Assembly: GCF_021474405.1 (NCBI RefSeq)
Contig: NZ_JAKEIO010000001.1
Location: forward strand, 62,001 to 126,000
Direction of reading: 5' to 3'
Source of the DNA: [Streptosporangium] indianense
GTDB lineage: Bacteria; Actinomycetota; Actinomycetes; Streptomycetales; Streptomycetaceae
Length of the DNA: 64,000 nucleotides
Shown here: positions 15,641 to 19,863 of the stretch, piece by piece
Layout: every line of letters starts with the position of its first letter
Numbering within the stretch: the stretch's first letter is position 1
Notes under the pieces: generated by a model
What the model was told of the DNA's origin: nothing
What the model saw: the letters and a program-made list of their open reading frames with translations, nothing else
The model's database searches: none
Program-made: the position numbers and the translations under genes

Positions 15641-15761
15641 GCGGGCACTGTATCCACCGGCATCCCGGCCCGCGCCCCGCCGACGTGTGCACCGCGTCCG
15701 GCGTGAACGTCCGCCCCCGGCACATGTCCACCCGTTCGGATCACCCCTACACTCCGGGTTC

Positions 15762-16511
15762 ATGCTGCGTGCCCTGGCTGTCGACGACGAACGCCCCTCG
15801 CTGGAGGAACTGCTCTACCTCCTGCACGCCGACCCCCGCATCGGCAGCGCGGAGGGCGTGGGCGACGCGACCGAGGCGCTGCGCCGCATGAACCGCGCCC
15901 TGGAGTCCGGCCCGGGCGGGCCCGAGGCCATCGACGTGGTCTTCCTGGACATCCAGATGCCCGGCCTCGACGGCCTCGACCTCGCGCGGCTGCTCACCGG
16001 CTTCGCCCGGCCGCCCCTCGTCGTGTTCGTCACCGCCCACGAGGACTTCGCCGTGCAGGCCTTCGACCTCAAGGCCGTCGACTACGTCCTCAAACCGGTC
16101 CGCAAGGAGCGGCTCGCCGAGGCCGTCCGCCGGGCCGCCGAACTGCGCGGCGCCACCCCCCGCATCCCCGTCCACGAACCCGACCCGGACCACATACCCG
16201 TCGAGCTCGGCGGCGTGACCCGCTTCGTCGCCGTCGACGACATCACCCACGTCGAGGCCCAGGGCGACTACGCCCGCCTGCACACCGACAAGGGCAGCCA
16301 CCTGGTGCGCATCCCGCTGTCCACCCTGGAGGAGCGCTGGCGCACCCGCGGCTTCATCCGCATCCACCGCCGCCACCTCGTCGCCCTGCGCCACATCGGC
16401 GAACTCCGCCTCGACGCCGGCACCGTCAGCGTCCTCGTCGGCGCCGAGGAGCTCCAGGTCAGCCGGCGCCACACGCGCGAACTGCGCGACCTGCTGATGA
16501 GGAGGACGTGA
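15762..16511 (+). CDS. LytTR-family response regulator
   Basis: A 249-residue response regulator: receiver domain at residues 1-120 with acidic pocket VDDE, phospho-acceptor Asp63 in FLDIQMPG and Lys in LKPV; LytTR DNA-binding domain at about 150-249 (DITHVEAQGDYARLHT, GFIRIHRRHLV). Its partner is most likely the LytS-type kinase three genes downstream. A TACACT hexamer lies 8 nt before the ATG and no ribosome site is visible, so the mRNA may be leaderless. Its stop overlaps the next start by 4 bp. LytTR-LytS pairs often respond to extracellular metabolites or to transporter flux. Confidence 0.93.
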   Translation: MLRALAVDDERPSLEELLYLLHADPRIGSAEGVGDATEALRRMNRALESGPGGPEAIDVVFLDIQMPGLDGLDLARLLTGFARPPLVVFVTAHEDFAVQAFDLKAVDYVLKPVRKERLAEAVRRAAELRGATPRIPVHEPDPDHIPVELGGVTRFVAVDDITHVEAQGDYARLHTDKGSHLVRIPLSTLEERWRTRGFIRIHRRHLVALRHIGELRLDAGTVSVLVGAEELQVSRRHTRELRDLLMRRT

Positions 16512-16909
16512 CGGTGCCCCAGGACCACACCGAACGCCGTGTCGTCGTCACCGGCCCGCCCCGGCAGACCGTCCCGCACGCCCGGCTCCGCTCGCGCGGG
16601 CGGTACCCGCAGGCCTCCGGCTCCTACCGTCCGCGCACCGAGATCGACGAGCAGACCACCCTCGGCCACACCTACGTCCGCTCCCTGATGCGCACTCAAC
16701 TACGCGCCGCCCTCACCGTGATCACCGTCCTCGGCCTGCTCGTCGGCCCGCTCCCGCTGCTCTTCGCGGCGCTGCCGGACGCCCGCCGCCTGGAATGGGC
16801 CGTCCTCGGCTTCGGCCTCTACGTCCCGCTGGTGCTGCTCGCCCACTGGTACGTCCGCCGGGCCGAGCGCAACGAACGCGACTTCGTACGCCTCGTCGAA
16901 GACCGCTGA
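16508..16909 (+). CDS. small two-helix membrane protein, DUF485-like
   Basis: A 133-residue protein with a polar arginine-rich first half and two predicted transmembrane helices (AALTVITVLGLLVGPLPLLF and WAVLGFGLYVPLVLLAHWYV). The topology and position just before an acetate-type symporter resemble YjcH (DUF485), which sits before actP in enterobacteria; the match is by architecture, not clear sequence identity. The GTG start overlaps the response regulator stop, so it belongs to the operon. It might assist or tune the symporter. An ATG at 16688 (MRTQLRAAL) would give only the membrane part. Confidence 0.75.
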   Translation: MTVPQDHTERRVVVTGPPRQTVPHARLRSRGRYPQASGSYRPRTEIDEQTTLGHTYVRSLMRTQLRAALTVITVLGLLVGPLPLLFAALPDARRLEWAVLGFGLYVPLVLLAHWYVRRAERNERDFVRLVEDR

Positions 16910-16936
16910 CACCCCACCGATGAACGCCGGCCGCCG

Positions 16937-18652
16937 ATGAACTCCAGCTACGCCATCCCCGCCGTCGCCCTGGTCGTCGTCGCGACGGTCCTGGTCGGCG
17001 CCTTCGGCCTGCGCATCTCCCGCACCACGTCCGACTTCTACGTCGCCTCCCGTACCGTCGGTCCCCGCCTCAACGCCGCCGCCATCAGCGGCGAGTACCT
17101 CTCCGCCGCCTCCTTCCTGGGCATCGCGGGCCTCGTCCTGGTCCAGGGGCCCGACATGCTCTGGTACCCGGTCGGCTACACCGCCGGCTACCTGGTCCTG
17201 CTGATCTTCGTGGCCGCCCCGCTGCGCCGCTCCGGCGCCTACACGCTCCCCGACTTCGCGGAGGCGCGCCTCGCCTCCCAGGCCGTACGGCGGCTCGCCG
17301 GCGCCTTCGTCGTCGGTGTCGGCTGGCTGTACCTGCTGCCCCAGCTCCAGGGCGCCGGGCTGACCCTGACCGTGCTGACCCGGGCGCCCGACTGGCTGGG
17401 CGGAGTGATCGTCGCCGTCGTCGTGACCGCCACCGTCGCCGCCGGTGGCATGCGCAGCATCACCTTCGTGCAGGCCTTCCAGTACTGGCTGAAGCTCACC
17501 GCACTGCTCGTCCCCGCGCTGTTCCTGGTCCTCACCTGGCAGCACGACGGAGCGCCCCGGCACGCCTTCGATGAACCGGCCACCTTCCGCGAGCAGCGCG
17601 TCGTCCGCGTCGACGACGCGATCGACCTGAGGCTGGACCGGCCGCTGACCGTCATGGTGACCGGCACCGTCGACGGCCGGACCCACACCGCCACACGCCT
17701 GGAACTCACCGCAGGAACCCACCACATCGAGCGCGGCACCCGGCTCACCTTCACCCGGGGCGCCCCCGTCCCCGAGGCCTGGCGCAGCGGCGGCGGCGAC
17801 CTGTCCCCGTCGCAGGCCGAGAGCCGCGAGGAACGGCCGCTGTACGCCACGTACGGGCTGATCCTCGCCACCTTCCTCGGCACCATGGGCCTGCCGCACG
17901 TCGTGGTCCGCTTCTACACCAGCCCGCACGGCGTCGCCGCCCGTCGCACCACCGTCGCCGTCCTCGGATTGATCGGTGCCTTCTACCTGCTGCCCCCCGT
18001 CTACGGCGCCCTCGGCCGTCTCTACGCCCCCGAACTCACCCTCAGCGGCGACCCGGACGCCGCCGTCCTGCTGCTGCCCGACCGCATGATCGGGGGAGTG
18101 GGCGGCGACCTGCTGGGCGCGCTGGTCGCCGGGGGCGCCTTCGCGGCGTTCCTCTCCACGGCCTCGGGCCTGACCATGGCGGTCGCGGGCGTCCTCACCC
18201 AGGACGTCCTGCCGTCTCGCGGCGTACGGCACTTCCGGCTCGGCACGGTCCTCGCCATGGCCGTGCCCCTCGCGGCGAGTGTCCTGGTCGGCGGGCTGCC
18301 GGTCGCCGACGCCGTCGGGCTCGCCTTCGCCGTCTCGGCGTCCTCGTTCTGCCCACTGCTCGTCCTCGGCATCTGGTGGCGCCGGCTGACCCCGCCCGGA
18401 GCCGCCGCCGGGATGCTGGTCGGCGGCGGCTCCGCCCTGCTCGCCGTCGCAGCGACCATGGGCGGCTACCCGGGCGAGGGCGCCGCCCTGCACGCCCTGC
18501 TCGCCTGGCCCGCGCTGTGGTCGGTGCCCCTGGGCTTCCTCACCATGATCCTGGTGTCCCTGGCCACGCCCGGCCGGGTCCCGCCCGGCACCGCGTCGGT
18601 CCTGGCCCGGTTCCACCTGCCCGAGGAAGTGCGCTCGGAGGTGACGGCGTGA
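16937..18652 (+). CDS. sodium/solute symporter (SSS family, acetate permease-like)
   Basis: A 571-residue integral membrane transporter of the sodium:solute symporter family, nearest in layout to ActP/MctC monocarboxylate carriers. The N-terminal half has the ISRTTSDFYVASRTVGP and AISGEYLSAASFLG motifs that are typical of this group. About 100 residues between helices (roughly 205-300, starting at HDGAPRHAFDE and ending near SREERPLYA) form a large non-membrane insertion. GLPHVVVRFYTSP follows, as in acetate carriers. The stop shares 4 bp with the kinase start. Substrate is inferred to be a short organic acid. Confidence 0.9.
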   Translation: MNSSYAIPAVALVVVATVLVGAFGLRISRTTSDFYVASRTVGPRLNAAAISGEYLSAASFLGIAGLVLVQGPDMLWYPVGYTAGYLVLLIFVAAPLRRSGAYTLPDFAEARLASQAVRRLAGAFVVGVGWLYLLPQLQGAGLTLTVLTRAPDWLGGVIVAVVVTATVAAGGMRSITFVQAFQYWLKLTALLVPALFLVLTWQHDGAPRHAFDEPATFREQRVVRVDDAIDLRLDRPLTVMVTGTVDGRTHTATRLELTAGTHHIERGTRLTFTRGAPVPEAWRSGGGDLSPSQAESREERPLYATYGLILATFLGTMGLPHVVVRFYTSPHGVAARRTTVAVLGLIGAFYLLPPVYGALGRLYAPELTLSGDPDAAVLLLPDRMIGGVGGDLLGALVAGGAFAAFLSTASGLTMAVAGVLTQDVLPSRGVRHFRLGTVLAMAVPLAASVLVGGLPVADAVGLAFAVSASSFCPLLVLGIWWRRLTPPGAAAGMLVGGGSALLAVAATMGGYPGEGAALHALLAWPALWSVPLGFLTMILVSLATPGRVPPGTASVLARFHLPEEVRSEVTA

Positions 18653-19863
18653 GCGGGTTCCTGGCAGGTCTGTGCGTCGGCGTGCTCCCGGTGCTCGCCC
18701 TCGGGGTCTGGCTCGGCCGGCGGACGGCAAGGGCCAAGAGCCTCGCCGGCCTCGGCACCCCCGTCGAGCACGCCACCTTCGAGACCCTGCACACGGCGTC
18801 CCTCGCCGCGCCCCCGCTGCGGGCCGGCCTGACGGAGGAGACCGCCCGCAAATCCGCCCGTAAACTGCGCTCCCTGCTCGGCACGGACGCCCTGTGCCTC
18901 ACCGACCGCACCGGGGTCCTGGTCTGGGACGGCGACGGCGCCCATCACCGCGACGAGATCATGGACCGTCTCGCGGGCGCCCTGGAGACCGGCCGCGGCG
19001 AGGCGTTCCGGCTCACCTGCGACAGCCTCGACTGTTCGGTTCGCTGGGCGGTCGTCGCCCCGCTCACCGTCGACGACCGGGTGCACGGCGCGCTGGTCGC
19101 CTGCGCGCCCCGCGAGTCGGCGGTGCTCGTGCGGGCCGCGGGCGAGGTCGCCCGCTGGGTCTCCGTCCAGCTGGAGCTGGCCGATCTCGACCACTCCCGC
19201 ACCCGGCTCATCGAGGCCGAGATCAAGGCGCTGCGGGCCCAGATCTCACCCCATTTCATCTTCAACTCGCTCGCGGTGATCGCTTCCTTCGTCCGCACCG
19301 ATCCCGAGCGCGCCCGTGAGCTGCTGCTGGAATTCGCCGACTTCACGCGCTACTCGTTCCGCCGGCACGGCGACTTCACCACCCTCGCCGAGGAGCTCCA
19401 CGCCATCGACCACTACCTGGCGCTGGTGCGGGCACGCTTCGGCGACCGCCTCTCCGTCACCCTCCAGATAGCGCCGGAGGTGCTGCCGGTGACCCTGCCG
19501 TTCCTCTGCCTCCAGCCGCTCGTCGAGAACGCCGTCAAGCACGGCCTGGAGGGCAAGGCCGTGTCCTCGGGCCGCTGCCACATCCAGATCACCGCCCAGG
19601 ACGCGGGCGCCGAGGCCCTCGTCGTCATCGAGGACGACGGCGCCGGCATGGACCCCGGGCTGCTCCGCCGCATCCTGGCCCGCGAGGTCAGCCCCTCGGG
19701 CGGCATCGGCCTGTCCAACGTCGACGACCGGCTCCGCCAGGTCTACGGCGACGACTACGGCCTCGTCATCGAGACGGCCACCGGCGCCGGCATGAAGATC
19801 ACCGTCCGGCTCCCGAAGTACCAGCCCGGTGTGCACTCGGCGGGCCGTCCGGCCGGAGAGTGA
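18649..19863 (+). CDS. LytS-type sensor histidine kinase
   Basis: A 404-residue kinase with one N-terminal membrane helix (FLAGLCVGVLPVLALGVWLG), a GAF-like region (residues 60-175) and a His_kinase/HATPase part. The phospho-acceptor is His202 in the motif QISPHFIFNSL, characteristic of the LytS/YehU class; the ATPase shows PLVENAVKHG and GGIGLSNVDDRL. There is no large extracellular sensor domain, so the signal may come from the cytoplasm or from the adjacent symporter. The GTG start overlaps the symporter stop, coupling their synthesis. It should phosphorylate the LytTR regulator at the head of the operon. Confidence 0.92.
   Translation: MSGFLAGLCVGVLPVLALGVWLGRRTARAKSLAGLGTPVEHATFETLHTASLAAPPLRAGLTEETARKSARKLRSLLGTDALCLTDRTGVLVWDGDGAHHRDEIMDRLAGALETGRGEAFRLTCDSLDCSVRWAVVAPLTVDDRVHGALVACAPRESAVLVRAAGEVARWVSVQLELADLDHSRTRLIEAEIKALRAQISPHFIFNSLAVIASFVRTDPERARELLLEFADFTRYSFRRHGDFTTLAEELHAIDHYLALVRARFGDRLSVTLQIAPEVLPVTLPFLCLQPLVENAVKHGLEGKAVSSGRCHIQITAQDAGAEALVVIEDDGAGMDPGLLRRILAREVSPSGGIGLSNVDDRLRQVYGDDYGLVIETATGAGMKITVRLPKYQPGVHSAGRPAGE

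Follow-up and report, generated by a model that had tools for sequence, protein, structure and literature searches.

The four-gene module analysed here lies on the plus strand at positions 15,762 to 19,863 of a 64-kb stretch of [Streptosporangium] indianense DNA (the window; the window genome is the same organism's 7.8-Mb assembly), and it encodes a LytTR response regulator (RR), a small membrane protein (DUF485'), a symporter of the SSS family, SLC5 type (subfamily SSS'), and a LytS-type histidine kinase (HK). In the closest described systems, BtsS/BtsR and YpdA/YpdB of Escherichia coli, a LytS-type kinase and a LytTR regulator activate a separate carboxylate transporter, as we predict for the module. 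BtsS is described as binding pyruvate in its membrane domain (PMC10653868), and in one account YpdB controls yhjX, which encodes a putative antiporter of the major facilitator superfamily (MFS) and is comparable to the MFS target predicted here (PMC5552118). The BtsS and YpdA kinases have a multi-helix membrane sensor, whereas the module kinase has one helix, a GAF domain and a linked SSS symporter. The CrbS/CrbR, CbrA/CbrB and RpuS/RpuR systems resemble the module in that an SLC5-type protein is tied to a two-component system, but in CrbS, CbrA and RpuS a single protein comprises symporter, STAC domain and kinase, whereas the module has separate genes in all mapped loci, a LytS-type kinase and a LytTR regulator. 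CrbS and RpuS are described as controlling acs and mctP, acetate or pyruvate genes, and one study is cited as finding that CbrA signalling does not require transport (PMC5715377, PMC9100948). MctC/ActP with DUF485 likewise pair an SSS symporter with a small DUF485-type partner, and a true MctC lies near the module in 18 of 40 loci; SSS' differs in falling far below the MctC and ActP cut-offs, in a distinct score class. No description of the module was found in the open-licence literature searched (titles, abstract openings and passages).

We propose, with a probability of roughly 65%, that the module represents, in its Streptomyces version, a LytS/LytTR system of actinobacteria that governs how short-chain monocarboxylates (acetate, pyruvate or lactate) are taken up and used. 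Domains, co-inheritance, neighbours, sites and conservation were computed; the ligand, DNA binding, whether genes are switched on or off and what the symporter does are inferred. In the proposed mechanism, the kinase would combine a cytosolic signal, for which its GAF domain would be the direct switch, with input from the DUF485'-SSS' pair, which most likely signals extracellular substrate or flux to it. The kinase would phosphorylate the regulator, which would bind a direct repeat of ACCG[TC]TCG[GT]C upstream of separate genes and activate them. The targets would be MctC, AceTr/SatP or Acs in other genera, and in the window genome a transporter of the OFA/L-lactate MFS type and an extracytoplasmic function (ECF) sigma factor gene, whose product may relay the signal to further genes.

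Open reading frames and Pfam matches confirmed the four adjoining genes that an earlier note on this DNA had described. The RR (15,762-16,511) contains receiver (PF00072, 64.5 bits) and LytTR DNA-binding (PF04397, 70.5 bits) domains, and the kinase (18,649-19,863) contains His_kinase (PF06580, 84.6 bits, motif ISPHFIFNSL) and HATPase (PF02518, 45.6 bits) domains, which places the pair in the LytS/LytTR class. The symporter (16,937-18,652) matches PF00474 at 124 bits. The small membrane protein (16,508-16,909) had been called DUF485-like; it has no Pfam match to PF04341 (DUF485), but a remote similarity to canonical DUF485 was found by profile-profile comparison (probability 90.6%). Of the 4-bp overlaps claimed for three of the genes, those at RR/DUF485' (GTGA, 16,508-16,511) and SSS'/kinase (GTGA, 18,649-18,652) are real, the former assuming the GTG start at 16,508 and not the alternative GTG at 16,514, but a gap of 27 bp lies between DUF485' and SSS'.

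The kinase and the symporter are inherited together. A kinase match at E<=0.001 was found in 130 of 147 genomes of the taxonomic order (weak matches in G010, G037, G084, G104 and G140 were treated as kinase-negative). Across the class, the kinase (E<=1e-20) was detected in 151 of 296 genomes and 54 of 114 genera, and SSS' (E<=1e-90) in 146 of the 296. Both were present in 144 genomes, the kinase only in seven (G164, G242, G315, G341, G353, G373, G375), the symporter only in two (G160, G203) and neither in 143. The symporter-only genomes are incomplete (72% and 78%), so no near-complete genome in these sets was found to have SSS' without the kinase. The kinase without SSS' does occur: all 14 sampled genomes of one family (f3) contain the kinase and lack the symporter, and at E<=1e-50 SSS' was found in none of 36 further genomes (these 14, 21 kinase-negative Streptomyces and G002). 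With both proteins in 144 of the 153 genomes that carry either, gene association in other genomes, which the earlier note had proposed to check, is not loose. These results support the view that symporter and kinase form one evolutionary unit. SSS' is most likely a near-obligate partner of the two-component system and mostly not its target.

Gene neighbours were examined within ~7 kb of the kinase in 40 loci from 20 families, hand-chosen and not random, from the class kinase matches, several of them clipped by contig ends. The RR was present in 38 loci, SSS' in 36 and DUF485' in 32. Canonical DUF485-MctC was found in 18, Acs in 17 (including partial genes clipped at stretch ends) and AceTr/SatP in 6, with at least one of these in 29. 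The MctC, AcsA and AceTr proteins of representative loci exceeded the NCBIfam cut-offs, and canonical DUF485 exceeded the Pfam cut-off. With MctC/ActP, Acs and AceTr/SatP as neighbours, the parallel to CrbS-type acetate systems drawn previously fits. The gene set persists across actinobacteria, but the order varies. The common class order is HK-RR-DUF485'-SSS', often followed by DUF485-MctC and Acs, whereas among the 80 named loci (79 Streptomyces and one Streptacidiphilus, the best 80 of 574 candidates) 77, more than chance would give, have the RR upstream and SSS' directly before the kinase. The suggested translational coupling of symporter and kinase is not supported as a general feature: an exact 4-bp overlap occurs in 58 of these 80 loci, and SSS' directly followed by the kinase was observed in Streptomyces and Streptacidiphilus alone. 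No symporter was present in the six f3 loci inspected, which were arranged as HK-RR-AceTr-Acs (L046, L048, L233) or HK-RR-Acs (L047, L232, L234). Among the seven kinase-only class genomes, the locus was looked at in G341, which belongs to another family and also has HK-RR-AceTr-Acs (L230). SSS' was not near the kinase in L195, L205, L212 and L213; L205 and L213 are clipped stretches. In L195 (G200) and L212 (G171) neither RR nor SSS' lies within ~7 kb, and SSS' is found ~12 kb and ~19 kb away, respectively, on the same contig; in G200, RR, DUF485', SSS' and MctC are grouped at the distant site (L235).

The LytTR-type direct repeats that the earlier note had suggested looking for at target promoters were found, as predicted sites, before MctC in 17 of 18 loci. 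The half-sites of LytTR sites are spaced two helical turns apart. When no seed was used, near-identical 9-mer repeats upstream of canonical DUF485-MctC were spaced by 21 bp in 7 of the 18 regions and by 20 bp in 4; other distances gave 5 (18 bp), 4 (30 bp), 3 (26 bp) and mostly 0-2. The half-site is CGACCG[TC]TCG[GT]C, and the repeat ACCG[TC]TCG[GT]C has a period of 20-22 bp, mostly 21, so that the predicted half-sites are about two helical turns apart, as expected of the LytS/LytTR class. A leave-one-out matrix test, which was not fully blind because the motif seed came from the training loci, detected the site in 17 of 18 MctC regions at P<=0.015 against shuffled sequence, always on the coding strand; in the remaining locus (L196) the site precedes acs instead. 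Only upstream regions of at least 60 bp were scored. With the matrix from all 18 regions and P<=0.05, sites were found in 4 of 5 AceTr regions, in 4 of 16 acs regions and in 8 of 40 HK regions, five of these 8 being identical to or overlapping a divergent target's site, and in none of the 16 RR and 8 DUF485' regions of this class-wide set. Among nine loci outside the training set with AceTr or MctC (L046, L048, L049, L050, L051, L230, L233, L235 and L305, including Arthrobacter sp. StoSoilB13; L305-L307 are stretches without annotated genes), eight had a site upstream, on the target's strand, and L233 alone had none before its AceTr/MctC gene. The predicted site precedes AceTr in 2 of 3 f3 loci. 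As controls, 8 of 55 searched genomes absent from the class kinase list carry MctC, and 7 of these 8 had no site. Since roughly one in two of the class genomes sampled carries the family, the motif offers a way into the control of carbon-acid uptake throughout actinobacteria.

In the window genome, the two highest matrix scores were 25.5 (contig C53) and 25.4 (C86), followed by 23.5, 22.5 (21 bp) and 20.2 (20 bp). The C86 site is located at -87 relative to the ATG of a gene (C86:5564-6106) that encodes an ECF sigma factor; the product matches the NCBIfam sigma-70 family NF007227 at 241 bits. An orthologue (at least 190 bits) is present in 21/21 kinase-positive and 0/9 kinase-negative Streptomyces (best paralogue ~160 bits). 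In all 21 orthologues the site is present (P=0.005, the floor of 200 shuffles), lies on the coding strand and has a period of 20 bp; its position is -87 or -88 in G112 and in the 13 genomes of the window clade. None of nine control regions (three from kinase-negative genomes, six of paralogues) has such a site (P of 0.1 or more). In six of eight more distant genomes (G142, G075, G079, G026, G145, G042), the ECF gene lies within ~1.2 kb of the kinase; it is not near the kinase in G071 and G112.

The C53 site is located at -92 from the ATG of a gene for a 444-residue MFS protein (OFA-MFS), which scores 312 bits against the L-lactate MFS transporter family and 174 bits against the oxalate/formate antiport (OFA) family. 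We take YhjX to be an OFA-type transporter as well. Orthologues occur in 19 of 30 genomes. Eleven of the 13 window-clade genomes have the site at -91/-92, and G112 has it at about -96; the distant genomes G075 and G079 lack it. Two of three kinase-negative genomes with OFA showed nothing. Within the promoter, conservation is highest in the half-sites (0.95), against 0.67 for upstream sequence, 0.85 for the spacer and 0.86 for downstream sequence. Because the genomes used for the ECF and OFA sites are related, the site counts are not independent events. As the RR is the only LytTR match in the window genome, it is the natural candidate for the regulator acting at both sites. The earlier description of the module as self-contained does not hold, with both predicted targets located elsewhere in the genome. 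In more distant Streptomyces, a site stands before DUF485' in some loci (e.g. L159 and L165). It thus seems that the set of regulated genes was rewired and the core of four genes persisted.

Side observations were made at both promoters. In the window genome, a third half-site lies 12 bp before the scored pair of the ECF promoter (L311:1468-1509). A conserved gene is found 3' of the ECF sigma gene in both Streptomyces groups (L311:2161-2775, plus strand; L161:9142-9705, minus strand), and the L161 copy has no Pfam match. In the OFA promoter of G018 (L323), the repeat region is gone and the flanks align, as if it had been deleted. Judged from the translations, a gene for a small iron-sulphur protein and an FdhD-like gene lie divergently beside the OFA-MFS gene.

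Several points weigh against a monocarboxylate system acting through these sites. The motif seed was picked after the training loci had been viewed. A site was found before acs in only 4 of 16 regions, one of the four AceTr sites is on the wrong strand, the L230 site falls within the 3' end of the RR gene, and one kinase-negative MctC control (L299) reached P=0.02. Across the whole window genome, the degenerate pattern shows no excess over its control: with one mismatch allowed, it occurs 24 times at 21 bp and 8 times at 20 bp, versus 67 and 15 times for reversed controls, so a single pattern match proves nothing. The OFA-MFS score is just under the L-lactate transporter cut-off of 320 bits. 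The kinase-positive genomes G018 and G022 lack the OFA site (G022 has 12 bits on the other strand, P=0.017), and G087, which is kinase-negative, gave P=0.037 at 8.2 bits. Neither the window operon nor acs nor any of the five MctC-like genes in this genome has a convincing site. Finally, the physiological output in Streptomyces is less certain than in the genera with MctC and Acs, because the most constant target there is a sigma factor.

Two sets of candidate targets were rejected. The window operon is not retained as the regulator's own target: no repeat with a score of at least 17 occurs in the 64-kb window, and what is conserved upstream of the RR is a -10-like hexamer. This hexamer, TACACT (15,748-15,753, plus strand), ends 8 bp upstream of the RR start codon; the form TA[CG]ACT was found within 20 nt of the RR ATG in 21/21 window-clade sequences, and TACACT exactly in 18/21. 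Given this position, the RR mRNA is likely leaderless. The acs gene and the five MctC-like genes were also rejected (best scores, 14.6-15.6 bits). The element AGGTCTAAACCA, which resembles a DasR site, was observed in 29 of 30 Streptomyces acs promoters (L072-L101), ~98-119 bp upstream of the acs start codon, and similar elements precede acs in L046-L048.

The symporter model adopts an SGLT/NIS-like fold (mean pLDDT, the predicted local distance difference test score, 87.4), and a search of solved structures matched only distant SSS proteins. SSS' scored 194 bits against the MctC model (cut-off 670), 177 against ActP (750) and 236 against TIGR03648 (321), reaching none of the cut-offs. A model of SSS' gave 381-894 bits for 14 SSS' proteins, some of which were in the model, and 221-263 bits for 18 MctC proteins; SSS' is thus a score class separate from MctC/ActP. 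The ~100-residue non-membrane insertion noted previously is real: 98 residues in the stretch counted (about residues 204-300; 17,546-17,836), with a confidently predicted beta-domain at residues 221-283 (blocks in 221-280, pLDDT 91-98). By analogy with SSS topology, this beta-domain is expected to be extracellular. The insertion is large in 20 of 31 symporters, short (20-29 residues) in 10 and of 77 residues in one. S407 and T408, which we take to be Na2-site residues from an alignment to vSGLT, are kept in 29/31 and 31/31 symporters, respectively, and because these predicted residues are conserved, SSS' has probably not lost transport activity.

The kinase model (mean pLDDT 91.3) contains an N-terminal helix (residues 2-32), a GAF domain (residues 37-155; 18,760-19,116), dimerisation helices and an ATPase domain. 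The earlier note had described one membrane helix and no obvious extracellular sensor. Both are confirmed, and no Pfam match to a 5TM-type multi-helix membrane sensor was found in the window kinase, but a predicted cytosolic GAF domain had been overlooked. It lies between the membrane helix and the dimerisation domain with pLDDT mostly >90. Since residues 37-155 are GAF-like in the model, the kinase would lack an extracellular sensor but not a sensor domain. Pfam gives no GAF match for the window kinase itself; a relative (L189) matches PF01590 at 22.8 bits (cut-off 22.4). Of 51 related kinases, 37 have a pair of cysteines spaced 3-6 residues apart within this domain and the others do not; in the window kinase the pair (Cys123 and Cys128) is a possible metal or redox site. 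The N-terminal helix is missing in 6 of the 51 kinases, with start codons chosen by script.

The alternative that fares best is that SSS' is merely a companion transporter and that what the kinase perceives, by way of GAF, is a metabolite or the redox state of the cytosol, which we consider a serious possibility, though well short of even odds. The confidently predicted GAF domain, its cysteine pair and the kinases without an N-terminal helix speak for it, as do the 14 of 14 f3 genomes with a kinase and no symporter, with AceTr and/or Acs adjoining in the six loci looked at, and G341 with the same arrangement. However, co-inheritance of kinase and SSS' is almost one-to-one, and the absence of the repeat from all 24 RR and DUF485' regions class-wide would be odd for a plain regulated transporter, although part of Streptomyces does have the repeat before the symporter genes. 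Because of the near one-to-one co-inheritance, and because the class-wide repeats precede other transporters and not SSS', we favour an input role for SSS'. The symporter is a plausible sensor, as the earlier note had suggested, but f3, G341, the small insertion in 10/31 symporters and the missing helix in 6/51 kinases are evidence against SSS' being necessary, and the GAF domain offers the kinase a sensor of its own.

A stricter version, in which SSS' and the kinase form an obligate complex with the symporter as receptor, as SLC5 is thought to be in CrbS, CbrA and RpuS, appears doubtful. It agrees with the co-inheritance, and the neighbours and logic match SLC5/STAC systems, described as sensors regulating a separate acs or mctP (PMC5715377, PMC9100948). 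Against it are the symporter-free kinases, the GAF domain carried by the kinase itself and the SSS'-before-kinase order, which was observed in Streptomyces and Streptacidiphilus alone. In addition, the symporter model shows no STAC-sized segment after the last helices, although STAC was not searched with a domain model. It is unlikely, in our view, that in Streptomyces the system no longer serves monocarboxylate uptake and acts chiefly through the ECF sigma factor, e.g. for an envelope or stress response, with OFA as a side target. The ECF site is indeed the more constant one (21/21 genomes, versus 11/13 window-clade genomes and one of three others for the OFA site), and the ECF gene adjoins the module in most of the distant genomes, but the same gene core adjoins acetate genes in other families, and the window clade's OFA target belongs to a monocarboxylate type. 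That the four genes are unrelated and cotranscribed by chance is highly improbable: the DUF485'/SSS' gap and the 22 of 80 named loci without the 4-bp SSS'/kinase overlap would allow it, but it is contradicted by the co-inheritance data, and the gene set survives reordering.

Returning to the monocarboxylate system with SSS' as input, we tentatively suggest, as a possibility somewhat less probable than a companion-transporter role for SSS', that SSS' is a former acetate-type symporter turned dedicated receptor. The result would be a CrbS counterpart that is split and arose independently, based on a LytS kinase, lacking STAC and having an optional extracellular beta-domain, and the regulon would have been rewired in Streptomyces to ECF, plus OFA in the window clade. 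If so, a two-component system would drive a sigma-factor cascade from a metabolite signal. The loci with and without the symporter or its outer domain constitute natural experiments on transporters as detachable histidine-kinase sensors.

In Streptomyces coelicolor, the orthologous kinase and LytTR regulator are probably SCO1217 and SCO1220, both of which appear in a published table. If this presumed orthology is correct, the evidence here makes SCO1217 and SCO1220 a pair rather than orphans, and the orphan pair of a model Streptomyces gains a partner, a likely substrate class, a motif and two predicted targets. The regulator thereby acquires specific predicted targets, one of which is a sigma factor inherited together with the system. 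The table lists SCO1217 as an orphan kinase and SCO1220 as an orphan regulator (PMC9739842), and SCO1220-1221 appear in an ArgR study among the probes with an unclear or absent shift (PMC3293853).

The module is flanked in the window by a divergent Lrp-type regulator gene upstream and a convergent CtaG gene downstream. Genome G048 contains a second, reordered copy of the module, beside which four tandem half-sites in 21-bp steps (L045:1915-1989, plus strand) stand upstream of an HATPase_c_2 (anti-sigma-like) gene.

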